A stretch of DNA of 64,000 nt from assembly GCF_900142465.1 (NCBI RefSeq), contig NZ_FRAX01000003.1:124001-188000 (forward strand). Direction: 5' to 3'. A model generated the notes under the pieces. It was given only the letters and a program-made list of their open reading frames with translations. It was not told where the DNA came from and ran no database searches. This document shows, piece after piece, positions 32,654 to 63,596 of this stretch (positions are counted from its first letter, which is position 1; each line of letters starts with the position of its first letter). Source of the stretch: Fibrobacter sp. UWH6. GTDB taxonomy: Bacteria > Fibrobacterota > Fibrobacteria > Fibrobacterales > Fibrobacteraceae. The position numbers and the translations under genes are program-made.

Positions 32654-33696
32654 ACCCTCTCGTACACTCTCAGCTTTGCAGAGCGAGCCCTACTGTTCTT
32701 TGCAATTTCATCATTGGAAGGAAGAATCGGCTTGCGATTTACCTTCTTCAGACGCTGGTGATTTCCGCCGCACATGCACACCGGCAAATGTTCCGGGCAA
32801 ATGCAAGCCTTTTCAAATTCAGCACAAGTATCCTTCACGCAGCGGTCTTCTACAGAGTGGTAGCTCATGACCACCAGACGACCGCCCACCTTCAGGCAAT
32901 CCACTGCAGAACGGATACTGGTTTCAATCTGGCGCAGTTCGCCATTCACTTCCATACGAACAGCCTGGAACACGCGAGCCAGCAGGCTGTTGGCGTCACG
33001 GCGCTTGTCCGGGAATACGGATTCCACAACGGACTTGATATCGCTAGGCAGGATATCGCGGCCCTCGCGACCAGTTTCTGTAGCAACTTCAATAATGCGA
33101 GTTGCCAGCTTAAAGGCGCGATCCATATCAGCGTTCTTACGCAGGGCTTCAGCCAAGTCATCGGCGCTTACACTACGCAACCATTCCTGGGCAGAAACTT
33201 CTTCACGACGATCCATACGCAGGTCTAACGGATTATTGCCAACGAAAGTAAAACCACGGGTAGAATCGTCTACCTGATGGCTACTAATTCCCAGATCATA
33301 GAGAACGCCGTCCAAGGAATCAGCCGGAATCTCTTCGCCCAGCATGGCAAAGGGAACCGGATGCACCACAAACTTGGGAAGACCTTCACCGTTGCTAACG
33401 GCAGAAAGGCGCTTAGTCGCAAACTTTACCGCATCATCATCGCGGTCAAAGGAATGCAAGGTTCCTTCGGCAGAAAGGCGGGTCGCAATAGCATAGGAGT
33501 GGCCGCCACCGCCCAAGGTACAGTCAGCAAAAGTTCCACCGGCTAGGATTTCAGCACCTTCAAGGCGGAGACCTTCAAGGCATTCCTTCAGCATTACAGG
33601 ATCATGGTAGAACACGCCGCCTTCAACTCCGGCGACAGCTGCTTCAGAAATTTTGTTTGTACGTAGAGACTTTACCTGAGGGTCATTTTTGCTCAT
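32650..33696 (-). CDS. rsmH: RsmH 16S rRNA m4C1402 methyltransferase
   Basis: 348 residues from ATG 33696, chosen for GGAGGATCTG upstream; the 41-residue longer frame would read through mraZ. Motifs Y-H-D-P-V-M-L at the start, D-C-T-L-G-G-G-G-H-S for SAM, Y-D-L-G-I-S-S-H-Q-V-D and V-M-S-Y-H-S-V-E-D-R. It methylates N4 of C1402 in 16S rRNA. It begins 14 bases inside the mraZ 3' end. Confidence 0.96.
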   Translation of the reverse strand: MSKNDPQVKSLRTNKISEAAVAGVEGGVFYHDPVMLKECLEGLRLEGAEILAGGTFADCTLGGGGHSYAIATRLSAEGTLHSFDRDDDAVKFATKRLSAVSNGEGLPKFVVHPVPFAMLGEEIPADSLDGVLYDLGISSHQVDDSTRGFTFVGNNPLDLRMDRREEVSAQEWLRSVSADDLAEALRKNADMDRAFKLATRIIEVATETGREGRDILPSDIKSVVESVFPDKRRDANSLLARVFQAVRMEVNGELRQIETSIRSAVDCLKVGGRLVVMSYHSVEDRCVKDTCAEFEKACICPEHLPVCMCGGNHQRLKKVNRKPILPSNDEIAKNSRARSAKLRVYERV

Positions 33697-34162
33697 CAGA
33701 TCCTCCCGCAAAATCTGCCATACAGAGTCTTTCGAACTCAGCCAGATCCTCTTCGGAATCCATAGCGAACTGAGCTTCATACTTTTCTGTATTCCACAAT
33801 TCCAACGACTTACCGCCAACAGAGTCCACGAACATTACGCTGTTCGTAAGGCCTGCAAACAGGAGCTTATCCTTAGGGAGTAATATGCGATTCTGGCCGT
33901 CGAGCTCAACAGGGATGGCTCTTAGACGCAGACGGAATTTTTGGGCAGCATTGCGGTCGGACCAACGGTCAACCTCAGCTTTGAACTTATCATATTCGGC
34001 TCTTACAAACAAACGAAGTCTGTCCTTCATCCAGTTCGTGAGCACGAATTCAGAACCATCCTCAGGGGTCAGTTGACGACGGAATTCCCGAGGGAAGGCG
34101 CACCTACCCTTTCCGTCGATGGCCGATTTGGCCTGACCTATGAAATAGTTCTCTAAGCTCAT
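33683..34162 (-). CDS. mraZ: MraZ transcriptional regulator of the dcw cluster
   Basis: 159 residues, slightly longer than the usual 143-152 because of an acidic C-terminal tail. The two SpoVT/AbrB-like halves are visible: D-G-K-G-R-C-A-F-P-R-E-F-R near residue 16 and D-G-Q-N-R-I-L-L-P-K-D near residue 90. Known members form a ring that binds TGGGN repeats spaced by five bases upstream of their own operon. Such repeats are present here (34234-34248, 34276-34300, 34416-34440). Confidence 0.95.
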   Translation of the reverse strand: MSLENYFIGQAKSAIDGKGRCAFPREFRRQLTPEDGSEFVLTNWMKDRLRLFVRAEYDKFKAEVDRWSDRNAAQKFRLRLRAIPVELDGQNRILLPKDKLLFAGLTNSVMFVDSVGGKSLELWNTEKYEAQFAMDSEEDLAEFERLCMADFAGGSDEQK

Positions 34163-34475: not shown

Positions 34476-35684
34476 ATGCTGCTGCGCGTACCGTCTTTCT
34501 ACAACAAGTTTTGCTGCCTTGCCGACAAATGCACCGACACCTGCTGCGTCGGCTGGGAAATCGACGTCGACGAAATCAGCCTTTCCAAGTACAGGGACCT
34601 CGCCGAAAACACATCCCCGAAATGCGAAAGGGACGAAAAGAAAATCGCCTTCGCCAAAATTTTGATGGAAAACATCCAGGACGGGCATTTCATCTTAAAG
34701 CCCGGCGACCGCTGTCCCTTCCTTATGAAAAACGGCCTTTGCGAAATGATCTGCAAACTGGGGTGCAACGGATCCGACTTAGATGAATCCGGCGAAAGCG
34801 TTCTCTGTGACATCTGCCGCGAGCACCCCCGCTTTGTGGAAGTTTACGGGGACATCATGGAAAAGGGCGTCGGCCTTTGCTGCGAAGAAGCCGTTAGACT
34901 ATTACTCACCAGCGATTCACAAGACGACTCCACCATCTGTCATTCTGAGCTATACGAAACTAAGAACTTTAGTTCTCAAGTTGAGTTATGCCCTTTGGGT
35001 AGAAGCACGAAGTGCGAAGTCGAAGAATCTAGCAACGTTCTAAATCTCGTCAAAAGTGAAATTGACGAAGAACCCGACGAAATGCCCGAAGGCGCCGAAG
35101 AAGCCCGAGACGCCATCTTCGCAGAACGGGAACACATTTTTGAATTACTGGCAAATAAAAGCAAGCCTCTGAACCAGAGGCTCATAGAGATTTTGGATTA
35201 CGTCGAAAATACAAACGCAAACGATAAAGAAAATTCCGATCTCTTAAGTGATGCCGCTACCAAGCAAACCTGGATCGAAATCCTTGGCGAAGGGGAAAGT
35301 TTCGGACCCGCCTGGGATAAAGCCTTTGAACGAATGATCCGCAAAGGCTGGGACCAGTCTCAAGATTTATTTTCTGAAGAAGACGGCGAAAAAATCGTAG
35401 CCTACCTGATTTTCCGCTATTACGCCAAGAGCCTCTTTGACGGTGACGCCATCACCAAGGTACAGTTCGCTATCTTCTTCTGGATTATCCTGCAACATTT
35501 CGGAATGGAACTTTCCGCCGAAGTTCCTGAAGGCGCCGCAGATCTTACCCGCAAAATCAACGCGATAAAGCTTTTGAGCAAGCAGACAGAATACTCCGAA
35601 GAAATCATGGACATCCTGGCAGATAACTTCTACCAGAACGAGGCTTTCTGTACGGAACAGTTCCGCAGCATTCTATCCCCATGA
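34476..35684 (+). CDS. FliB-like cysteine-rich protein (lysine N-methylase family)
   Basis: 402 residues from ATG 34476; the frame stays open upstream to 34194, but that part has no protein-like character and holds the mraZ operators. The N-terminal half carries the family cysteines: F-C-C-L-A-D-K-C-T-D-T-C-C-V-G-W, then R-C-P-F-L-M-K-N-G-L-C-E-M-I-C-K-L-G and L-C-D-I-C-R-E-H-P-R-F. FliB proteins methylate lysines of flagellin in Salmonella and are thought to use an iron-sulfur cluster. No flagellar gene is in sight and Fibrobacter is regarded as non-flagellated, so the target must be something else. About 32 residues (34938-35033) are encoded by a segment that looks like a dispersed repeat. 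The stop overlaps the next gene (ATGA). Confidence 0.85.
   Translation: MLLRVPSFYNKFCCLADKCTDTCCVGWEIDVDEISLSKYRDLAENTSPKCERDEKKIAFAKILMENIQDGHFILKPGDRCPFLMKNGLCEMICKLGCNGSDLDESGESVLCDICREHPRFVEVYGDIMEKGVGLCCEEAVRLLLTSDSQDDSTICHSELYETKNFSSQVELCPLGRSTKCEVEESSNVLNLVKSEIDEEPDEMPEGAEEARDAIFAEREHIFELLANKSKPLNQRLIEILDYVENTNANDKENSDLLSDAATKQTWIEILGEGESFGPAWDKAFERMIRKGWDQSQDLFSEEDGEKIVAYLIFRYYAKSLFDGDAITKVQFAIFFWIILQHFGMELSAEVPEGAADLTRKINAIKLLSKQTEYSEEIMDILADNFYQNEAFCTEQFRSILSP
34938..35033 (+). repeat. Dispersed-repeat-like segment inside the FliB-like gene
   Basis: Begins TGTCATTCTGAGC and ends CGAAGTCGAAGAATCTAG, the two half-elements of a common bacterial intergenic repeat type, with inner palindromes AGAAC-TTTA-GTTCT and GCAC-GAA-GTGC. 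It is read in frame as part of the protein. A related half-pair occurs at 54109-54134. Confidence 0.6.
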
Positions 35685-36661
35685 TCATTTCAGCCAGCAT
35701 CCGCACGGATCTTCCCGCCTTTTACTCCAAATGGTTTCTGAATCGGATTCGAGAAGGTTTCGTCCTGGTACGCAACCCTTACAATCAGGATTACATTACC
35801 CGATACCAGCTGGACCCAAGTGTAGTTGACTGTATTTTCTTCTGCACCAAGAATCCAACCCCGCTCCTACCCCATCTTGACGAAATCAAAGATTTCCGCT
35901 GGGCATGGCATATCACCCTCACACCCTACGGCAAGGACATCGAGCCCAACGTTCCCGACAAGCGATTGATCGTGGAACAATTCAAGAAGTTGTCGGACTT
36001 GGTTAACACCCATAATGGCGGCCAGGATGCAGTACAGTGGCGTTATGACCCCATCTGCATTACAGGACGTTACACCGTGGAGCAGCACATCAAATCCTTC
36101 GAGGTGATGGCCGCTCTGCTAGAAGGCTACACCCACACCTGCATCATCAGCTTCGTGGACATTTTCAATTGCGTCACCAGGAACTTCCCTGACCTTAAAG
36201 AAGTTTCCTGGGAAGATCAAATTACCCTCACCAAAGCCTTTGTGGAAATCGGTCGCCTGCACGGCATAAACATAAAGACATGCGTGGAAAGTTCCGCCCT
36301 GGCAGAATTCGGAGCAGATTGCAGCGGATGTTCCACTCCAGATTTTTTTGAGAAAGCCTTAGGCCTTAAAGAAAAAGGTCTTACCTTCATGCCGCCAAAG
36401 AAGAAATTTGCCCGCGAGGAATGTTCCGCCTGCGTGGTAGGCGGAGACATCGGCAATTACAGCAACTGCCCGCACCTTTGCAAATATTGTTACGCCAACT
36501 ACGGCAAGGATCAAGTGCTAAGCAAGCACAACATGCACGATCCGAATTCACCGCTGATTATCGGTAACGTTAAGCCCGGCGAAATCGTCCACCCGGCAAA
36601 ACAAATCAGCTGGATAAAGAAAAAGCCCGACATTCAGCCGGACTTGTTCGAAAACATCTAG
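35681..36661 (+). CDS. DUF1848 protein with C-terminal radical-SAM-like cysteines
   Basis: 326 residues starting M-I-I-S-A-S-I-R-T-D-L-P-A-F-Y, the usual DUF1848 opening. Other family motifs: C-T-K-N-P-T-P-L, V-Q-W-R-Y-D-P-I and I-S-F-V-D. The C-terminal part has N-C-P-H-L-C-K-Y-C-Y-A-N-Y, a C-x3-C-x2-C pattern like that which holds the iron-sulfur cluster of radical SAM enzymes but at the other end of the chain. The reaction is unknown. It overlaps the FliB-like gene by 4 bases (ATGA), so the two are cotranslated. Confidence 0.9.
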   Translation: MIISASIRTDLPAFYSKWFLNRIREGFVLVRNPYNQDYITRYQLDPSVVDCIFFCTKNPTPLLPHLDEIKDFRWAWHITLTPYGKDIEPNVPDKRLIVEQFKKLSDLVNTHNGGQDAVQWRYDPICITGRYTVEQHIKSFEVMAALLEGYTHTCIISFVDIFNCVTRNFPDLKEVSWEDQITLTKAFVEIGRLHGINIKTCVESSALAEFGADCSGCSTPDFFEKALGLKEKGLTFMPPKKKFAREECSACVVGGDIGNYSNCPHLCKYCYANYGKDQVLSKHNMHDPNSPLIIGNVKPGEIVHPAKQISWIKKKPDIQPDLFENI

Positions 36662-38964: not shown

Positions 38965-39615
38965 TTACAAACTAATGAACTTCCGCATTCCCACAACAGT
39001 AGCGGCAACACAAACCGCTAACGAGAAACCAAGCGCCACCACAGGCATCATCATATCCCGCAAGAAAGTCTGATAACCGAGCTGCACCAAAAGCAAAAGC
39101 GGAATAATAAAGAACAGCGTCCCCTGAGTGGCTGCGCGAACAGTTTTCGCCTTAAGAGAAAGCAACAAAGAAAAGGCATTCACTAAAAGACAAGCTGACA
39201 TAGAACCAAGAATCGCAGCAACCACCACCTCACCGTTCACAACATCAGAGTGCGCGCCCCAATACACTAGCTGACAAATCAACGAAAACATCAACGGGAA
39301 CGGCAGCACCGCCAAAAACTTACCCCAGAACAGGTGTGCAGGCTTCACTGGAGAAAGCTGCAACAGTTCCAGGGAATTTCTTTCACGTTCGCCAGCAAAG
39401 CTATCGGCAGCAAGAGGCGCACCCATAGGCGCCATGAGGCAACCAAGCAACAGCATCATGTAGCCATCCATGCCCTGCATAATCTGCCCGCCATAGCGAG
39501 ATACGGCAATCCCCTGGGACACCGCCAACAGCACCGGAGGAATCACAAAAGGAATCCAGAAGCGGGGCTCCCGGAAAACCAACCGCAGTTCATGCTTTAG
39601 AACGTGAAGAATCAT
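38965..39615 (-). CDS. ABC-2 type permease, no partner ATPase beside it
   Basis: 216 residues from ATG 39615 (M-I-L-H-V-L-K-H-E-L-R-L-V-F-R-E-P-R-F-W); the longer frame runs into repeat sequence. Six membrane helices and the ABC-2 family motif F-A-G-E-R-E-R-N-S-L-E-L-L-Q-L-S-P after helix 2, as in NatB/CcmB-like permeases. It would need an ATPase encoded elsewhere. EttA upstream is a translation factor, not a transporter ATPase. Confidence 0.8.
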   Translation of the reverse strand: MILHVLKHELRLVFREPRFWIPFVIPPVLLAVSQGIAVSRYGGQIMQGMDGYMMLLLGCLMAPMGAPLAADSFAGERERNSLELLQLSPVKPAHLFWGKFLAVLPFPLMFSLICQLVYWGAHSDVVNGEVVVAAILGSMSACLLVNAFSLLLSLKAKTVRAATQGTLFFIIPLLLLVQLGYQTFLRDMMMPVVALGFSLAVCVAATVVGMRKFISL

Positions 39616-39626
39616 AAGAAAAGCGT

Positions 39627-39654
39627 TGAGCAATGAGCTGTGAGCAACGAGCCA
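39627..39654. repeat. Four tandem heptamers of TGAGCAA type
   Basis: TGAGCAA-TGAGCTG-TGAGCAA-CGAGCCA, followed by AATGCTCAT. It lies just upstream of the permease start. A TGAGCAATGCTCA palindrome of similar words occurs at 14432-14444. Confidence 0.6.
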
Positions 39655-39674
39655 AATGCTCATAAAAAAATAAT

Positions 39675-39707
39675 AAAAAGGCGCCCCCAAGTGAATGGAT
39701 AGGCGCC
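39675..39707 (-). terminator. Terminator after ettA
   Basis: On the minus strand GGCGCC, a 16-base loop, GGCGCC, then TTTTTATTATTTTTTT. Confidence 0.75.
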
Positions 39708-54275: not shown

Positions 54276-57200
54276 TTATTTACGGTAAACACTGGCAGAA
54301 CAGACTATTTGAGCACTAGTTCCGACAGAATTGGTTAACTCGATATAATAGTTATAATATTTATTTTTAGACAAAGAACCAAAATCAATAGACGTAAGCA
54401 CGTCGCCTTTCTTCATCACCTTGGTTCCAGAAGCAACAACGTTTCCATCTAATTTAACGGCATAGGCGCAACCGCCATACTCTTCACCACAATTTTCCAC
54501 TTCTCCAGTGATTTTAATATCAAAGGTATACCTTCCGTTTGACCCATAATTTTCAACAGTGGATGGACTAGCACCAAAATCATTATTTGTACATCTTGGT
54601 TTATAACCAATGCCCATTTCGGCTTCACATTGTTTTTTCCCGTTTGAATACAGTTCAAAAACATGCGTTCCCTTTTCACTATGGCTAATGTTCGTGACAT
54701 ACGTGGAGAAAGAACCATCGTCACCAAACCAATAGCTAGAATTGGATAGTTTGAGAACTCCATCCATATAAATCTGAACGTCAGCATTTTTTTTCCGTAT
54801 GTTAGACGAACCCTTCATAGTTATGTTGGAGTTACCCCAAAGAACCGGAGTAATACTTTCAGGACTTACAGAACAATTGTTCATGACAGGTTCTTTGTTT
54901 TCTAGTGATGCCGAACAGATTGTTTGACCATTAGATGTTTTCAACACGTATGTAACAGTTCCCGCCTCAGTAGGCGTTATAGAAACATCATACTTTTTCT
55001 CAGATACATATTCACTAATAACTTTGTCCTGAGCAGAAACAGAAACCATATTCCCATTTTGATCATACAAATCCACCACATAAGTTGGACTTTTTACAGA
55101 GATGTTTTGCACAACAAACTTCGTATATCTTGTTCCACCAAGCATATCACTACTGTCTTCAAACTTACAGGTAGCGCTGTAGGCCATAGGAGCAGAAGAA
55201 GAACTGCTTACTGCGATACTGGAACTGGATCGCGGAACCGGAGGAAGTCCGTCACAACCAGGAACAGGGCCACCCGCGCCGGCAATTCCAGCAGCTTCAC
55301 AACTCATACTGAAAATTTCAACATCATTCGGAACAACAAATGAGATTCCAGATGTTATCGCATAGCCAATGGCCCCCTGATTACCACCATATTCCTTAGC
55401 ACCAGAACAGGCATAAGAATGGCCATTAACATTTAAAGTTTTACCCTTTGTGCAATAAATCCACCATTGAGTTGTATTGCTACAATTATGAAGGAGCTTA
55501 TAATTACCCGAAGGAATATTTGTAAGTTTCGAATGCTTTTCACGACCAGCAATACCTTCATTGCCAACCAAGAAACAAAGATTTGAAGACGGTGTTGGAG
55601 CAACGGAAGAGGAACTTGCCACAGAAGAGGAACTTGCGGCAATGGTATACTGCTCCGCGCAACCAGTGCTATTATTGTTACCGTTATTCAATACCAAGAC
55701 AATTCTGTTATCACCCACAGTGAAATTGGTTCCTGACAAGTCAAAGCTTACTGAATTACCTGTTGAAGATGAAACAGAGCCCAATTCACCCAGTTCATTT
55801 CCAAGGCCATCAGTAGCATACAGCTTACCATCCCAACTATCTCCAGTATAGGAAACATCGGCAGTGAATTCCTTTGTTCCTGCATTGAAGTGACAGTTAG
55901 AAGCACTAGCCGTTTTTTCATTGGAGGCAGCAACTACAGTAAATTCGCACTCCTCGTTCTTTTTACCCTGCACATCAATGGTGTAGTGGTAAGTACCAGG
56001 ATCCAGCTTATAACCAACAGAATTCGCATCGCCGAAGCTCTGTTCTTGTGATGTTCCGTCAGATATTCCAGATGCCATAAAGTCACCAAAAGAAACAGAA
56101 TAGTTACAATCAGGACAATTGGAAATCAGGTATGTCAGTGTAGGAATACCCGCACCTTGCTCCACCTGGTATTCAGACAGACTACAGGTTATGTCGACCG
56201 GATTAACCGTGTAGGGATCGCAAGTTTTTGATGCAACTTCACCTGTCGATGTATTTGTAACTTGCAGAGCAAAGTTAAATTCTTCGCCATAATCAGAAAC
56301 CTTGGAGAGCAAACCGGGTTCAGGAAGCCTATACTGGCTAACACAGGAGCCCTTTAATTCAGAATCATCTGCAGAGGAATTATTCGGAACAATCACCTTA
56401 CATTCGTCAGCATTTCTGACTTCAGCAGAAACAATCCAAGACGAGCCCGTGTACCTTGCAGTGCAGCTCTTGACGCCCAAAGCATAGGGGCATTCCGATT
56501 CCACATGTTGGATTTCGAAATTACACTCGGAACTTGTAAAACGGAATTCCTTGATTTTTTGCGGATCGAAGCCACTGGCATCAGAATAATCATCCATATC
56601 AAAATATGAATCTCCATTACTAGAAATTGTGATATTTTCAGAGGCATTTCCAGTAGAGTCAACAACACTAATAACCACATCACCTTGACAATCTCCACTA
56701 TTCAGCTTGTAGTAAACGCTGGCATTTCTCAAATTAGCAGAGCCCTTGGTCGCCATGTCATGTTCAACAACGCAGGTGGAGCCCACATTGCACTGAATGG
56801 CCGAAGAGTACGGTTCCATAAAGTCATAATTCTTTTCGCACAACACAATGTCGCCTACGATAAACTGACCGCAGCTCTGGCTTGCCGTCAACGAGGATGG
56901 AGGCGTCGTAGATGCACTTTGACAATTCAGCTTTACCTTGGCATCCTTGGCAATGCCGGTACCACTTTCATGAGTGTATCCATGTTGTCCTTCTCGACTG
57001 AAATTATAGATTCCGGAGCTAACCACAGCACCATCATCCCAGTACAAGCCTATATTATCCGGATTATGGCTGCAACTGTTCCTACTGAACATGTTACTCC
57101 AAAGATCGTCTTTGCTATAGTCTGTCCAAGTACCAGAAGTTGTCGTGTTATCACAGCCATTATAATAATACTTCACGTTACATCCGGCTTGTTCATAGTC

Positions 57201-60200
57201 AGTTTCCTCGAAACTGGACAAAACAACCCAAGGCTTGACATCTTCATCCAAAGGTACTATTCCACCAGGATAATTGGATCTGAATGAACAGAGGATTCTA
57301 GGAGTAGCCCAACAATCACTAACATAGGTATCACTTTGCCAGGAAATATCGTATACCCTGAACTTAGGATTGGACAGCTTAAGGCCAACATACTCATTAC
57401 CTTCCAGAGTTTTGCCAAACCCACTCAAGTCAAACTTGATACTCTTCTGACCATCTTTCATGGCCAAACGATCGAGTGTAAAATCAAGACTCAGCATTTT
57501 TCCGGATAGTTTCATGGTCATGCCAAACTTCGTTCCCGAAGTGATACCCAAACCTTGAGAAAGTTCCTGAGTAATATCAGTAAGCCAATTACCCGTAGTT
57601 TCCCAAGCGGAAATGGGCAACTCTTCCGTTTTACATATGGTTCTACCATTTGAGGCAGCAGTCTGTTCTTCTACAATGCATAGGTGGGCATAAATCTTGT
57701 TACTGTAAAGGCTATTTACATTAGCTAAGCCAAAAACACTTAACGAGAAATACTCAGTAGCATTCTTATTTGACCTAAAAATGAATCCAGAATTCTCATA
57801 ATCGTAGCGGGACGGATGAGTTTTTCCTTGAAAAAGTTCTATCCAATCTGATACCGATTTCGGAATTTCAAATACGGTCGGTAAAATACCCGTAGTAAAC
57901 AGGGATGTCATAGTACCATTGGTACCTGTCTGCTTGGCACTTAAAATTACAGCCTGGGTACCATTAATATCATTGGCGTTTGTTTCTGCACTGGCATTGG
58001 CTGCAATATAACCACCGTTTACCTCAGGATAAAGTACTTTCTTACTGTAATCTTTTTGAGCCGATTGGTATATACGTTTTTCACAACCACTAGGGATGTA
58101 ATATTTATACCCTGCGATCGTTTTTTCCTCACATTTCGATTTATCGTACGATACAGGTCGCTGAGCGCTAACAAGAGGCCTATTGTCATAGACCATAACC
58201 CATTCCGGTTTTGAACCCTTATGAACAGATGCATCCAGGGCACAAGACTTGCCTATACCCATTTTGTAGTCACAGGTGTCGATACATCTCTTATCTGATC
58301 CGTCGCAGAATTTGGTGGGGAAGCCCACATTCTTTTTATCGTCGTCAAAATCTTCATAGAAGCAGTGTTCATCTTCCTCGTTGAATCGAGCTGTGACGAT
58401 ATTTGTATCAGAAACGGAAATTCCGTAATTGTTGAATTTTCCGCCAGCAAAGGGACAGCTCTTTCCTTCACACTTCCAAGCAGCAAATTCGTCATCACCA
58501 TTTTCTTTATAGTTAAAGAAATACTTGTACCCGTGATAAGCCGTTATAACGGTATCTTTATCACAAGTCGCAAGAACAACATCTCCCTGCGTAGCATTAC
58601 TTGTTTTAGAATAGGACACACTTACTTCACTACCGCTCTTTGCTCCCGTAATCTTTAGATATAGCGGATAGGACTTTCGCGTGATTGAAGCGTATAAATC
58701 AATAGTCGTATCAACTCGGGCAGAATAAATTTCCTTAGGAGCAACGGTCACCTCACATTCAGTAGACATATTGTTCTTCATGCCCTGCAATTGAACATTA
58801 GGATCAATAAAGACACTGCAGCTCCACTTTTCATTCTGAATTTCAGGACTGCAACCAATACCATTGGCACGAACCCAGGCACTGCTTCCAACCTTGTCAG
58901 AGCAAGATTCCGCCTGCATGACCTTATAAAGTTTGCCACCCACTTTACAATCTTCATTGTTCTCATTTTCATCCAGAGCGCAGAATTCATCAACAGGTTT
59001 AATATTCACATTAAAGGATCCTCCTGCCACAATGGTAGTATGGTCATATTCATGGCCAATAATACAGCCATCGCAAGGGTCAATCATCTGGAAAGTCACT
59101 GCACTAGATTCACCATTAGAAGGCATTTCTACGGTAAAGACATTGAATGTTTTCACGTCGGTTGCATGAGGTGTTACAGTCACCGTATAGACCCTAGAGC
59201 CATCCGCATTTATAGTATGAGCAGAAGCGCCAGTCACAGTCCAATTTGAAGGTAGAGGACTCTGGTAAACGTCCACATTTACCGGCTGACCATTCGCAGA
59301 TGGATTGACCTTTATAGCCACTTTCTTTATTTCATTCTTGTTTATTTCAATATTTTCATCTACAAACTGGACGGGTGGAGGATTACCTCTATCGCCAGCC
59401 ACAACGATATAGAACGGCACTGCGCCAAAGGTGTTACCAGCATAGTTACATCTATAAGGTTTGCCATTATTGGCAGACAAATCACCATAGCTACTAAAAG
59501 AAGCCATGGTCGGCATTGACGATGGGCTACAAGTTACAGCAGCAGGATTTTTCTGCGCCGTAGCCCCGTTCAAATTTATAACGTCATAGTAATCTGCAAG
59601 GGTTCCATAAGGGTTTGCTGGCAAATAAAGAATTCTTGGCAAAACAATAATCGAAGGAGCCAAATCAACTCCACCATTTTCGATGTTTCTTACAGACAGT
59701 TCATTATTCCTATACTGTGATTCTGTACGGATATACAGCTGAGGTGCTGCGGCAATATAGTAGGAATCCTTATCACCATTTGTACTAGAGGATCCACCAG
59801 AACCAGAACCAGAACCGCTACCATCTGCAGAACATTTGTCCGTTTCATCATTATCACAAATGACATTAATTTCAGCAAGTGCCTGAGTCAAGCTGCTATT
59901 GGCGGTCGCTGCTACAGCTGCATTATGAGTCCCAGTATTTAATGCCGAACAGTTTGCCATGTAAATGGATCCCGTCATAGGATCATTTAAATTCATTTGA
60001 AAATCTTTTATGTCGCCATCACTATAAATGAAATAATTTTTCTTTCCAGTGCTAGAAGTCTTTAAAGTTATTGTATGATTCCAACCATCAGGGAAATAGA
60101 TGAATACGTTGGAATTTTCTGTCATATCCGGCAAATCTATCTGATTTGTCGGGGAAGTTCCATTGATAATCAATATGAAATTGCCTTCCAGCAATGTGCT

Positions 60201-61808
60201 GGAATTACCCCATTGTGGATTGCTAAATTCAGCAACAAGCCATTTATCCTTGTACAACTTAGATGCACCAAGTTCAGACGCATAACATCTATTCAGCTGG
60301 CCCACCCAATCACTAGGCCAAGAATTCCAAAGGGTTGCCCAAGTACAAGAACTTTTGTTAGTAGACGTAATCTTGTAAGAAGAACTGAGAACATCTTTAT
60401 TAAACTGTAAGGGGTCCTTCACATGAAGATCTGTCTCGCAGCCCTTTTCCTTACCGCCAGGAATAATTTTTTGAGCAATTGCATCTAGAGAATCCGCTCT
60501 CCATTTTTCCAGCTCATTTTGGCTGGGTGCTCCCGATGCATAATAAGTACTATATACCTTAAAGAAACCACCATATTCAGGCTCAGCTTCGCCGCTTTTT
60601 ACGCAATCAAGATCATTACAATAATACGTGGAAGGAATATTTTCATTTTCATATTTTGTATTTAACTGCGTCAAACCAGGAGCATACATCGCCGTCGCCG
60701 ACAAAGGCGAGCCAAAGCTAACTCGTTCAATATCGTAATACTTGTGGTCTCCTTCAAGCCCATTTTTTATATACGAATTTCCTGTAACATCGAACTGAAA
60801 TCCCCATTGATTTCCATTTCCATTTGTATTAAAAATAAGTTTGTCATCAACAGTCAAATTTTTTCCGACATGAACAACTGACTGGGAGTTATTTGTCGGC
60901 ATATAGGACGCAGCTCCTAGAGTAAGATTACCCTTCACTTCAAGAATACCACCAATGGAGCCTCCACAACCACCCATCGCATTAGGGCCTCTAGTCGTAA
61001 GATCAAGGCCACCTCTTGCAAATAAATCACCATAAATGGTGTCGCCTTTTCCGCCCATAGTTGCGTACCACTTGCCACCAACATAGGCATTGCCCATCAC
61101 TTTTACGTTTGTACAGCGGCTAAAATCTTCTACCACATAGAGATTACCAACCTTGGAGTTGGAGTTGAATTCGGCAGATCCTGTAATAATCAGGTCTCCT
61201 TCAACCTCAACCGAACTAAACGCACTACCACCACCATTTGTTGCATCCGGGCTACCATTAATAGTCGCGGAATTCACCTTTAAGTCGCCCGCACTGGCCA
61301 AGGAACCATGGAAGGCATCATTAAAACCGCTAAAGCTTTGTTCTGCGGGAATCTGAACCTGGTAAAGACCAGAAATTTTAAGAACAGCAACCTCGCTATG
61401 TTTTGCGCCACCATTTCTTGCCTTACCCACAGAGACAAGCTTTACCGTATAGGGCAAGGTTTCAGTATTGGCATCGACAATCCATACATCAAAATCCTGC
61501 TGGTTGTTGCTATTGGCAACAGACTTCAAGACATTAGTCAAGCGAACAGGGACTCGGTCATCCGGCTCTGGGGTCAGGTACTGACGAATGGCTGCTCCAG
61601 TTTCGTTGCCATGGTAAGTCATCCAAGCACGAGCTGATGCGATACCCGCATAAGCTGCCTGCTGGGCTTCACTTTTATATAGGCGGGATGCGCTGGAAAA
61701 CCCCGAAGAGGACAGCCATTTGTAGGTTGCGGTTGCAGCAATTGTTGCAATCATCATGAACAGCAACACAGCAACAAGGGAAACACCTTTTTTTGCATTC
61801 TTAAACAT
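54276..61808 (-). CDS. Giant PilX-like minor pilin with adhesin-sized extracellular part
   Basis: 2510 residues from ATG 61808 (AAGAGGTATAGT upstream); the longer frame to 61895 overlaps pilW. The N-terminus M-F-K-N-A-K-K-G-V-S-L-V-A-V-L-L-F-M is a PilX-type prepilin signal (cleavage after G; no glutamate at +5). Residues about 170-400 have glycine-rich G-D-L/G-N-L-x-V repeats typical of a beta-helix. Later parts include a glycine/serine linker, Ig-like stretches (P-V-N-V-D-V-Y-Q-S-P-L-P), cysteine-rich blocks, and S-S-S-S-V-A-S-S-S-S-V-A-P linkers between modules. It is cotranscribed with PilV- and PilW-like genes and lies 10 bases after pilW. It probably forms a pilus tip or surface adhesin; the ligand is unknown. 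The gene replaces the PilX-PilY1 slot of other pilin operons. Confidence 0.85.
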   Translation of the reverse strand: MFKNAKKGVSLVAVLLFMMIATIAATATYKWLSSSGFSSASRLYKSEAQQAAYAGIASARAWMTYHGNETGAAIRQYLTPEPDDRVPVRLTNVLKSVANSNNQQDFDVWIVDANTETLPYTVKLVSVGKARNGGAKHSEVAVLKISGLYQVQIPAEQSFSGFNDAFHGSLASAGDLKVNSATINGSPDATNGGGSAFSSVEVEGDLIITGSAEFNSNSKVGNLYVVEDFSRCTNVKVMGNAYVGGKWYATMGGKGDTIYGDLFARGGLDLTTRGPNAMGGCGGSIGGILEVKGNLTLGAASYMPTNNSQSVVHVGKNLTVDDKLIFNTNGNGNQWGFQFDVTGNSYIKNGLEGDHKYYDIERVSFGSPLSATAMYAPGLTQLNTKYENENIPSTYYCNDLDCVKSGEAEPEYGGFFKVYSTYYASGAPSQNELEKWRADSLDAIAQKIIPGGKEKGCETDLHVKDPLQFNKDVLSSSYKITSTNKSSCTWATLWNSWPSDWVGQLNRCYASELGASKLYKDKWLVAEFSNPQWGNSSTLLEGNFILIINGTSPTNQIDLPDMTENSNVFIYFPDGWNHTITLKTSSTGKKNYFIYSDGDIKDFQMNLNDPMTGSIYMANCSALNTGTHNAAVAATANSSLTQALAEINVICDNDETDKCSADGSGSGSGSGGSSSTNGDKDSYYIAAAPQLYIRTESQYRNNELSVRNIENGGVDLAPSIIVLPRILYLPANPYGTLADYYDVINLNGATAQKNPAAVTCSPSSMPTMASFSSYGDLSANNGKPYRCNYAGNTFGAVPFYIVVAGDRGNPPPVQFVDENIEINKNEIKKVAIKVNPSANGQPVNVDVYQSPLPSNWTVTGASAHTINADGSRVYTVTVTPHATDVKTFNVFTVEMPSNGESSAVTFQMIDPCDGCIIGHEYDHTTIVAGGSFNVNIKPVDEFCALDENENNEDCKVGGKLYKVMQAESCSDKVGSSAWVRANGIGCSPEIQNEKWSCSVFIDPNVQLQGMKNNMSTECEVTVAPKEIYSARVDTTIDLYASITRKSYPLYLKITGAKSGSEVSVSYSKTSNATQGDVVLATCDKDTVITAYHGYKYFFNYKENGDDEFAAWKCEGKSCPFAGGKFNNYGISVSDTNIVTARFNEEDEHCFYEDFDDDKKNVGFPTKFCDGSDKRCIDTCDYKMGIGKSCALDASVHKGSKPEWVMVYDNRPLVSAQRPVSYDKSKCEEKTIAGYKYYIPSGCEKRIYQSAQKDYSKKVLYPEVNGGYIAANASAETNANDINGTQAVILSAKQTGTNGTMTSLFTTGILPTVFEIPKSVSDWIELFQGKTHPSRYDYENSGFIFRSNKNATEYFSLSVFGLANVNSLYSNKIYAHLCIVEEQTAASNGRTICKTEELPISAWETTGNWLTDITQELSQGLGITSGTKFGMTMKLSGKMLSLDFTLDRLAMKDGQKSIKFDLSGFGKTLEGNEYVGLKLSNPKFRVYDISWQSDTYVSDCWATPRILCSFRSNYPGGIVPLDEDVKPWVVLSSFEETDYEQAGCNVKYYYNGCDNTTTSGTWTDYSKDDLWSNMFSRNSCSHNPDNIGLYWDDGAVVSSGIYNFSREGQHGYTHESGTGIAKDAKVKLNCQSASTTPPSSLTASQSCGQFIVGDIVLCEKNYDFMEPYSSAIQCNVGSTCVVEHDMATKGSANLRNASVYYKLNSGDCQGDVVISVVDSTGNASENITISSNGDSYFDMDDYSDASGFDPQKIKEFRFTSSECNFEIQHVESECPYALGVKSCTARYTGSSWIVSAEVRNADECKVIVPNNSSADDSELKGSCVSQYRLPEPGLLSKVSDYGEEFNFALQVTNTSTGEVASKTCDPYTVNPVDITCSLSEYQVEQGAGIPTLTYLISNCPDCNYSVSFGDFMASGISDGTSQEQSFGDANSVGYKLDPGTYHYTIDVQGKKNEECEFTVVAASNEKTASASNCHFNAGTKEFTADVSYTGDSWDGKLYATDGLGNELGELGSVSSSTGNSVSFDLSGTNFTVGDNRIVLVLNNGNNNSTGCAEQYTIAASSSSVASSSSVAPTPSSNLCFLVGNEGIAGREKHSKLTNIPSGNYKLLHNCSNTTQWWIYCTKGKTLNVNGHSYACSGAKEYGGNQGAIGYAITSGISFVVPNDVEIFSMSCEAAGIAGAGGPVPGCDGLPPVPRSSSSIAVSSSSSAPMAYSATCKFEDSSDMLGGTRYTKFVVQNISVKSPTYVVDLYDQNGNMVSVSAQDKVISEYVSEKKYDVSITPTEAGTVTYVLKTSNGQTICSASLENKEPVMNNCSVSPESITPVLWGNSNITMKGSSNIRKKNADVQIYMDGVLKLSNSSYWFGDDGSFSTYVTNISHSEKGTHVFELYSNGKKQCEAEMGIGYKPRCTNNDFGASPSTVENYGSNGRYTFDIKITGEVENCGEEYGGCAYAVKLDGNVVASGTKVMKKGDVLTSIDFGSLSKNKYYNYYIELTNSVGTSAQIVCSASVYRK

Positions 61809-61818
61809 ACTATACCTC

Positions 61819-63105
61819 TTAGTTTGCACCCACACCGTTACTGGGTACGGCAATAATGTGCGAGGAAAAACCTGTTTCACCATTTTTCTTAACAACTAGG
61901 GAATCCTTAAATGCGCGAACATTTACCTTATCTTCTAGTTCAGGAACATATCCAGGCGCAAAGGTAAAGTTGAGGTCTGCCACCTTAATCAATTTCAATT
62001 GGCTGATTGCAATGGATCCCGAAGAGAACAAAGGGGAATAGGGAGCAAAGGTAAAGGCTATGCAAGCCTCCACCGGACTGTTCACCTTAAAGAGAGCTGT
62101 TCTCGCAATGGAATTTGCCGAAGCAGCAGTTGTCGGGAAAAAGCTGAAGTCGCGAAGACCTTCAATTTTATTTCCCTCGGTTGTCCTAAAGCCTACAGAC
62201 ATATAGTCTACGCCAGGAATGAAAGTCTGTGAATTGTCGTTATTGCCTGTTCTCGGAAGCGTAAAGGAAAGTTCGTAGGTCGTATCCGGGTTCAAATTAA
62301 CCTTCGTGCAAAGATCGCTCCATTCTCCTACATTGCCATTAGCCTCGCTCGCATATAGCTGGTTCGCCTTACGTTCAGTAGTATACAATTCATTTGTAGC
62401 ATCATAATTCGAGGTAAATCCGGAAATGGTTACAGCAACGCCACCATTTTCAGGAGAAAGAATCGCTCTAAAAAAATCCGTACCATCAATACGAGACAAA
62501 AGTCTAAAGGAATCACCTCCTCCCGGTGGAAATAGCTGTGCAGCATCTGCATTCGCACTCAATACAGCAGGCCTTGCAGGTCGAATCTTAAAAGATTCAA
62601 CGCCTTCTGCAATAACAACATCGTAAGGATCGCTCTTTGGGCATGCGTCATCGATAACAGCAGACGCTTCGTTCACAATAGTTTGACAGGACCTGACCAG
62701 CGATGTACCGTCAACATGCCAGGAAATTCCCTCAACAGCCTGATAGGATCCATCTTCGCTATAGCGCATTTTCTTGAAATAAAGGCTATCATTCTTTGAA
62801 CCGGCTTTATACACGAAGGAGGAATAATCCTGCTTTGTTACATCTGTATTATAGGGATCAATAAAAACAGCATCGTGAGCTTCGTATCCAGAAGCACCCA
62901 GAAAACTTTTTGCTCCCATCTGCGAAACATCATCCCTGATCAGGACTCCAGCATTTTCAGCGATTTCATTGGCAGTAATCATCCCCTGGGTACGAATTCG
63001 CATCTTGGTGCTATCACTATAAACCTGGCCTGCGATCACCACCACAATGCCAACAATGGCCATATAGACCAAAAGTTCCATCAATGTAAAACCACGCTTA
63101 TTCAT
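61819..63105 (-). CDS. PilW-like minor prepilin
   Basis: 428 residues. Prepilin signal K-R-G-F-T-L-M-E-L-L-V-Y-M-A-I-V-G-I-V, then a helix and a large C-terminal part of beta character (Y-E-L-S-F-T-L-P-R-T-G-N). PilW proteins are usually about 250-350 residues, so this one is long. Minor pilins of this type prime type IV pilus assembly. Its ATG overlaps the pilV stop by 4 bases. Confidence 0.88.
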   Translation of the reverse strand: MNKRGFTLMELLVYMAIVGIVVVIAGQVYSDSTKMRIRTQGMITANEIAENAGVLIRDDVSQMGAKSFLGASGYEAHDAVFIDPYNTDVTKQDYSSFVYKAGSKNDSLYFKKMRYSEDGSYQAVEGISWHVDGTSLVRSCQTIVNEASAVIDDACPKSDPYDVVIAEGVESFKIRPARPAVLSANADAAQLFPPGGGDSFRLLSRIDGTDFFRAILSPENGGVAVTISGFTSNYDATNELYTTERKANQLYASEANGNVGEWSDLCTKVNLNPDTTYELSFTLPRTGNNDNSQTFIPGVDYMSVGFRTTEGNKIEGLRDFSFFPTTAASANSIARTALFKVNSPVEACIAFTFAPYSPLFSSGSIAISQLKLIKVADLNFTFAPGYVPELEDKVNVRAFKDSLVVKKNGETGFSSHIIAVPSNGVGAN

Positions 63106-63596
63106 CGAATAACCCCCGAAACATTAATGGACTGATTAGACCCCTTAAATGACCAGCTTACACGAACATTAACCTGTTTCGCATAAATGTGACTAGCATC
63201 TTCATAGTTCGAATGAGACGCAGCTTCGAAATCATCCGTCTTTGCAACAGTAATCTGACGAGCATATCTTATTGTGGCGTAACCCCCAAGGCCTCGTTCC
63301 CACCGACGTGTAATGGAATCCAGAGGGTAAGTTGTATCACCATCAGCCTTCGAAGCGATTGACGCAGCACCAACAGAATTAAGGGAATCAAGTACATTCT
63401 GTGCAAGTTCTACCGCCCCGTCTCTACCGCGGATTCTGAGGAACGTATCATGATTGCTAGTCTGCAGCTTATTTAAAGCCACGACCATAAAGCCGAGAAC
63501 AGCGGCAGAAACGAGGACTTCGGCGATACCGAAGCCTCGTTTGGAATTCCTGCCGATAGGCAAACAAAGATTGCTCTTTTGTTGCTTAGGTTCCAT
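63102..63596 (-). CDS. PilV-like minor prepilin
   Basis: 164 residues. Prepilin signal after a basic leader: N-S-K-R-G-F-G-I-A-E-V-L-V-S-A-A-V-L-G-F-M-V-V-A-L-N-K, the A-E-V-L-V-S form typical of PilV. It is the first gene of the three-gene operon and overlaps the pilW-like start (ATGA). Confidence 0.88.
   Translation of the reverse strand: MEPKQQKSNLCLPIGRNSKRGFGIAEVLVSAAVLGFMVVALNKLQTSNHDTFLRIRGRDGAVELAQNVLDSLNSVGAASIASKADGDTTYPLDSITRRWERGLGGYATIRYARQITVAKTDDFEAASHSNYEDASHIYAKQVNVRVSWSFKGSNQSINVSGVIR

Follow-up and report, generated by a model that had tools for sequence, protein, structure and literature searches.

The gene pair and its setting

The window, the whole stretch of 64,000 nucleotides that was analysed, comes from Fibrobacter sp. 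UWH6 (genome G000; 3.92 Mb, 99.99% complete) and carries two adjacent genes on the same strand, the first encoding a FliB-like protein and the second a member of the DUF1848 family. A first-pass annotation had placed them within 34476–36661 with a common ATGA, and the sequence agrees. The features on which the analysis draws are the following:

33683..34162, minus strand: divergent mraZ-like gene, start of a cell-wall/division cluster (named by eye; adjoins FliB in relatives)
34476..35684, plus strand: gene for the FliB-like protein (flagellin lysine-N-methylase family), 402 aa (NF038110, 155.6 bits; family alignment A4)
34515..34547, plus strand: CX4CX3CC motif, C14–C24 of the FliB-like protein (16/16 sequences of A4)
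35681..35684, plus strand: ATGA start/stop overlap of the two genes, read from the sequence (not kept in the six other measured paired loci)
35681..36661, plus strand: DUF1848 gene, 326 aa (PF08902, 299.7 bits; predicted model; structural and profile alignments)
35684..35725, plus strand: N-terminal IISASIRTDLPAFY stretch of DUF1848, putative beta2 position of radical SAM barrels (alignments A1 and A2; VIA-align ranges)
36281..36433, plus strand: stretch with the invariant C201, C217, C248, and C251, a possible second metal site (42/42 in A2, 16/16 in A1)
36467..36490, plus strand: C-terminal CX3CX2C (C263, C267, and C270 of 326), a radical-SAM-like cluster site (42/42 in A2, 16/16 in A1)
38965..39690, minus strand: ABC-2 membrane protein gene, the downstream flank of the pair in relatives (PF12679, 44.7 bits; synteny)

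The FliB-like reading frame begins at the ATG at 34476 and its stop codon ends at 35684; the frame stays open upstream as far as 34194, and the start at 34476 is consistent with the family alignment. In seven of the eight paired loci (G090 being the one left out of the measurement), the two genes are separated by −4, 2, 10, 15, 28, 33, and 42 bp, and the ATGA overlap is thus this genome's own, the conserved features being only closeness and a shared strand. The neighbourhood of the pair is a cell-wall cluster, as judged from gene names assigned by eye. An OLD-type ATPase with a TOPRIM domain (PF13175, PF20469; 47506–49308, minus strand), defence-like in character, lies near this cluster.

A FliB-like protein in a genome without flagellin

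The first protein scores 155.6 bits against the FliB profile NF038110 (cut-off 85), matching most of its length, and a Pfam search returned no match of weight. Eight cysteines are present in all 16 sequences of the family alignment A4, and a ninth in 15 of the 16; the window protein carries the CX4CX3CC motif as well as the further conserved cysteines C80, C89, C111, C114, and C136. Its identity to the seven aligned members outside its own family is 19–29%. A sequence search of solved structures found no relative of it (best E 0.049), and the AlphaFold model of the protein alone was set aside (pLDDT 34.6). Relatives of FliB were also sought in viral contigs, where none was found, and neither protein of the pair matches PHROGs.

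According to the portions of the Salmonella FliB study consulted, CX4CX3CC holds a [4Fe–4S] cluster that is required for SAM-dependent methylation (PMC8598068). By analogy, the window protein would bind a [4Fe–4S] cluster at the same motif. The two settings differ: the FliB-like gene of the window adjoins mraZ, and the flagellin profile PF00669 has no match in its genome, the whole 3.92 Mb of which was searched, so that the protein is here called FliB-like and is not filed as a flagellin methylase. This bears out the initial suggestion that the FliB-type protein stands in a non-flagellar setting.

The same situation recurs across the phylum. Of 167 Fibrobacterota genomes, 90 carry FliB, including 74 of the 80 in the genus of the window, and flagellin is found in 65 of the 160 genomes drawn for that search (two of the 65 below the curated cut-off). 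Only six Fibrobacterota genomes hold both (G001, G008–G011, and G014), and 84 of the 90 FliB-bearing genomes show no flagellin, a count that includes seven undrawn genomes and many incomplete ones, in which a flagellin can be hidden. Among 50 genomes from other phyla, which had been picked for DUF1848, 21 have FliB, 18 have flagellin, and nine have both. These counts indicate that FliB-type proteins without flagella are common and that the name of the family claims more than has been established; for an entire genus without flagella, the automatic label "flagellin lysine-N-methylase" misleads, and the real substrate of the non-flagellar proteins thereby becomes a testable question.

By analogy, the FliB-like protein is most likely a FliB-family methylase with a non-flagellar role, acting on the lysines of a protein that is not flagellin. 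Pilins are one possible target among many: the N-terminal methylation motif of prepilins (N_methyl) has 10 matches in the genome, nine of them above the cut-off, and the closest gene of prepilin type lies some 25 kb from the pair.

Conserved cysteines and predicted fold of the DUF1848 protein

The second protein is a full-length member of DUF1848 (PF08902, 299.7 bits against a cut-off of 30.5, covering profile positions 1–262 of 262). To our knowledge, the family has no described function, and neither DUF1848 nor RTasDUF1848 was mentioned in the one limited paper collection that was searched. Seven cysteines are invariant in all 42 sequences of alignment A2. Three of them, C263, C267, and C270, form the C-terminal CX3CX2C, which upholds the early remark that radical-SAM-like cysteines stand at this end of the protein; the Pfam entry reportedly comments on C-terminal cysteines as well. 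The other four, C201, C217, C248, and C251, make up a candidate second four-cysteine metal site.

The radical SAM profile PF04055 aligns residues 262–278 with its positions 6–20 at 17.1 bits, short of the cut-off of 29.5, so that the start of the profile is matched at the end of the protein. Given this placement of the cluster motif and the sub-threshold score, DUF1848 is described here as a permuted relative and not as a standard radical SAM member.

The AlphaFold model, built from an alignment of the window protein and 41 relatives (42 of 81 available sequences), has a pLDDT of 93.7 and a pTM of 0.90. In the VIA-align comparison of this predicted model, the first 24 entries are all radical SAM proteins, with a best Z of 10.4, and 35 of the 50 entries are radical SAM by a reading of their titles. 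The Z scores are 10.4 for MqnE, 9.9 for biotin synthase, 9.6 for RlmN, 9.0 for HydE, and 8.6 for pyruvate formate-lyase (PFL) activase. The matched ranges mostly start deep in the known chains, at residue 71 of PFL activase, 102 of HydE, and 171 of RlmN, and at residue 1 of the model; PFL activase 71–245, for example, pairs with model residues 1–200 (Z 8.6, rmsd 2.9, 160 residues). The cluster cysteines of these three enzymes presumably lie before residues 71, 102, and 171, respectively, and since PFL activase is matched only from residue 71 on, the part of it that holds the cluster motif is unmatched in the model. The 50 entries include no structure of spore photoproduct lyase, which carries no weight either way. 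Foldseek gave no match to the model at E ≤ 0.001, its best rows being weak and diverse TIM barrels, and a sequence search of solved structures with the DUF1848 profile found no relative (best E 0.18).

Probable circular permutation in the profile alignments

DUF1848 was aligned with a profile of spore-photoproduct-lyase-like (SPL-like) radical SAM proteins (n = 24), of which six came from DUF1848 loci and 18 from 21 further loci, three proteins having been dropped because the motif or the length was lacking and nine weaker loci having been left unused. With DUF1848 in its native order, hhalign returns two local matches whose order is swapped: DUF1848 257–279 with SPL-like 27–49 (E 7e-7), and DUF1848 30–200 with SPL-like 83–263 (E 9e-4, probability 23). 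The global alignment in native order scores 40.6 (E 1.4e-7, 95 columns), and a cut after residue 240 that brings the C-terminal segment to the front raises the score to 66.8 (E 2.3e-12, 251 columns). The score forms a plateau for cuts at 238–255 and is 34.1 for a cut at 270, inside the motif. The regions that align with SPL-like proteins such as rSAM_PA0069 (NF033668) and the radical SAM mobile pair protein (TIGR04470) are the YCYA-type CX3CX2C, TK(S/N), and EP..P, whereas the rotated order of segments and the four extra invariant cysteines set DUF1848 apart from these proteins.

The controls separate likeness from order. Reversed templates score 1.8 and 13.7. None of 200 column shuffles of residues 1–240 reaches 66 (maximum 48.1), and four of 200 shuffles in 20-residue blocks do (mean 49.0), so that block order alone is supported only at about the 2% level; together, the two kinds of shuffle make the likeness of the body clear and the evidence for its order moderate. 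A B12-type radical SAM profile gave no signal with DUF1848, permuted or native, and rotation of single sequences clearly lengthened the PF04055 match in only one of four, no DUF1848 protein rising above the cut-off.

The profile alignment and the predicted fold, taken together, argue with good probability that DUF1848 is circularly permuted. The competing explanation, which makes DUF1848 an ordinary TIM-barrel metalloprotein and its C-terminal CX3CX2C a product of convergence, is in keeping with the diverse TIM barrels at the head of the Foldseek results, the unreached PF04055 cut-off, and the four block shuffles, but it sits poorly with 24 leading structural matches that are all radical SAM, with a CX3CX2C that resembles the SPL-like one in its YCYA context, and with a body that becomes colinear after permutation; we consider it quite improbable. 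The passages retrieved from a limited collection that pair radical SAM with circular permutation concern other proteins.

Distribution and history of the pair

DUF1848 is present in 43 of the 167 Fibrobacterota genomes, 19 of which also hold FliB. The genes are adjacent in eight of these 19 (G000, G070, G089, G090, G092, G093, G094, and G099), all from a single genus in which 12 genomes hold both families and 62 of the 74 FliB-bearing genomes lack DUF1848. Outside the phylum, an HMM search of flanks of up to 8 kb, shorter where the contig ended, found FliB near none of 80 DUF1848 loci, the best 80 of 219 confirmed stretches, the search being confined to the DUF1848 locus retrieved from each genome; the same HMM recovered 15 of 15 divergent FliBs from such genomes, and the 80 loci include those of the 21 genomes, among 50 checked, that do hold a FliB. 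FliB is likewise absent from all 21 viral contigs that carry DUF1848. The pair is therefore local. The neighbour survey for which the first-pass annotation had called accordingly finds the two families rarely adjacent, and its proposal of a dedicated two-enzyme unit is not supported, DUF1848 having other recurrent neighbours as well.

At this locus, FliB is the older resident, since it stands divergent from mraZ in 10 of 24 FliB loci of relatives that lack DUF1848 at that place; one of these relatives, G125, carries an unrelated DUF1848 at another site. In trees, the FliBs of the eight paired genomes and of G091 and G095 group as a single clade (96/97), as do the DUF1848 proteins of the same ten genomes in the full-length tree (100/99), which was computed without row L078. 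The DUF1848 site beside FliB is empty in G091 and G095, and G091 otherwise keeps the same gene order, FliB and the ABC genes having no DUF1848 between them. The unlinked DUF1848 copies of these two genomes are nearly identical to each other and nested inside the clade; they are flanked on one side by a gene for a membrane protein of roughly 440 aa, which looks by eye like an antiporter, and on the other by a methyltransferase gene (PF08241, a score obtained for G091). The simplest history is one entry into the FliB locus followed by two departures. The strongest pointer to a need for DUF1848 is that both departed lineages keep one, with n = 2. In the paired subclade, adjacency outlasted the divergence of FliB to 57–63% identity, which makes a local functional link possible.

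Such a link might go as far as a dedicated unit in this Fibrobacter subclade, with FliB methylating lysines of surface proteins and DUF1848 modifying them further or serving FliB. The shared strand and the gaps of −4 to 42 bp in all seven measured loci, the adjacency in eight of the 12 genomes of the genus with both families, and the retention of a DUF1848 throughout the ten-member FliB subclade (in two genomes at another locus) fit this reading, as does the position of DUF1848 upstream of a methyltransferase gene in G091 and G095 and, at other loci, after a Cys-rich methyltransferase-like protein. However, the pair arose only once, most FliB-bearing genomes of the genus do without DUF1848, the other DUF1848 loci have no FliB nearby, and the other partners are not FliB homologues, so the reading is doubtful, if somewhat less so than the other alternatives discussed here.

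Other partners of DUF1848

No single partner prevails for DUF1848. Among 95 close same-strand neighbours, the Pfam tally is led by Macro (7), GNAT (6), Radical_SAM (4), and MarR (4). With our own HMMs, a macrodomain gene is found near DUF1848 at 10 of the 80 outside loci and three of 30 Fibrobacterota loci, and SirTM-like genes (labelled by eye), SPL-like radical SAM genes, and MarR genes at nine (one weak), eight, and six of the 80, respectively. In eight of the 80 loci (L061, L067, L069, L082, L083, L085, L099, and L129), macrodomain and SirTM-like sirtuin genes both lie within 2 kb of DUF1848. These loci recall the SirTM/zinc-macrodomain operon (PMC11490716); both genes are absent at the window pair, and the passages of that source that were available do not name DUF1848. 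In another Fibrobacterota family, DUF1848 has a radical SAM gene on its upstream side (L013, L016, L020, L023–L026, and L028), divergent where checked, and in L013, L020, L024, and L026 an ankyrin-like gene is convergent downstream, both labels having been given by eye.

A Cys-rich methyltransferase-like gene is directly upstream of DUF1848 at 12 of 131 loci (10 distinct): two of 30 in Fibrobacterota, four of 80 outside, and six of 21 viral ones. The two-gene modules so recognised are L001, L003, L101, L104, L113, L134, and, on viral contigs, L216–L219, L223, and L224. The methyltransferase label of the partner is based on a GCG motif recognised by eye and, in three of seven proteins, on matches below threshold. 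A distant homology of this partner to FliB was rejected (hhalign probability 0.6). Some of these modules on phage-like contigs adjoin recombinase or tail genes (by eye).

The PADLOC model RTasDUF1848 (DRT), which ties a DUF1848 to reverse transcriptases, scores 109.3 bits with the window protein, and DUF1848 occurs in 21 IMG/VR contigs, six plasmid records, and eight phage records. From these observations DUF1848 might be taken for a defence or mobile-element module that stands beside FliB by accident, but the place by FliB has been kept in eight genomes, and next to the window pair, which is surrounded by the cell-wall cluster, no reverse transcriptase and no gene of a mobile element was recognised (neighbours named by eye in each case). 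This explanation is unlikely.

Proposed roles of the two proteins

Family membership, motif conservation, flagellin absence, neighbour counts, the predicted fold, and the permuted alignment were computed; from them we infer the chemistry, the substrates, and any cooperation of FliB with DUF1848. The reading that we favour, and that is probably correct as a whole, is a non-flagellar FliB and a permuted radical-SAM-type DUF1848 brought together by a lineage-specific arrangement.

In the favoured reading, the FliB-like protein would methylate lysines of a non-flagellin protein. DUF1848 would be a permuted relative of the SPL-like radical SAM proteins, with the opening elements of the barrel (strand beta1, the loop bearing CX3CX2C, and alpha1) shifted to the C-terminus, so that the chain begins at the beta2 position; the cluster would still lie at the mouth of the barrel and cleave SAM reductively, and the protein would most likely perform radical SAM chemistry in its own right and carry a second four-cysteine site. 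As an accessory enzyme, DUF1848 would move between loci and take partners of several kinds; it may have entered the old FliB–mraZ locus a single time, in the common ancestor of a Fibrobacter subclade, and departed from it in two of the ten genomes. As DUF1848 is kept elsewhere in both unlinked genomes, the lineage of this FliB could need it.

A bolder and rather improbable extension takes DUF1848 for a naturally permuted family of radical SAM enzymes, with the break between alpha1 and beta2, whose members repeatedly join methyltransferase-type partners (the Cys-rich proteins of phage-like and other loci, the PF08241 methyltransferase, and the Fibrobacter FliB) in a methyl-handling module, here with a non-flagellin target. 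If the favoured reading of DUF1848 is confirmed, a widespread uncharacterised family would gain a reaction class, and the radical SAM barrel would prove to tolerate circular permutation through its catalytic segment.

Other features of the window and of FliB loci

A prepilin-like protein of 428 aa (N_methyl) is encoded at 61819–63105, within 54276–63596 on the minus strand, and overlaps a 2539-aa frame in that interval, which has no Pfam match; another prepilin motif, scoring below the cut-off, is located near 63474. In five of the 16 FliB regions compared (L181, L183, L184, L186, and L197), the gene after FliB on the same strand encodes a secreted protein that looks thioredoxin-like by eye.
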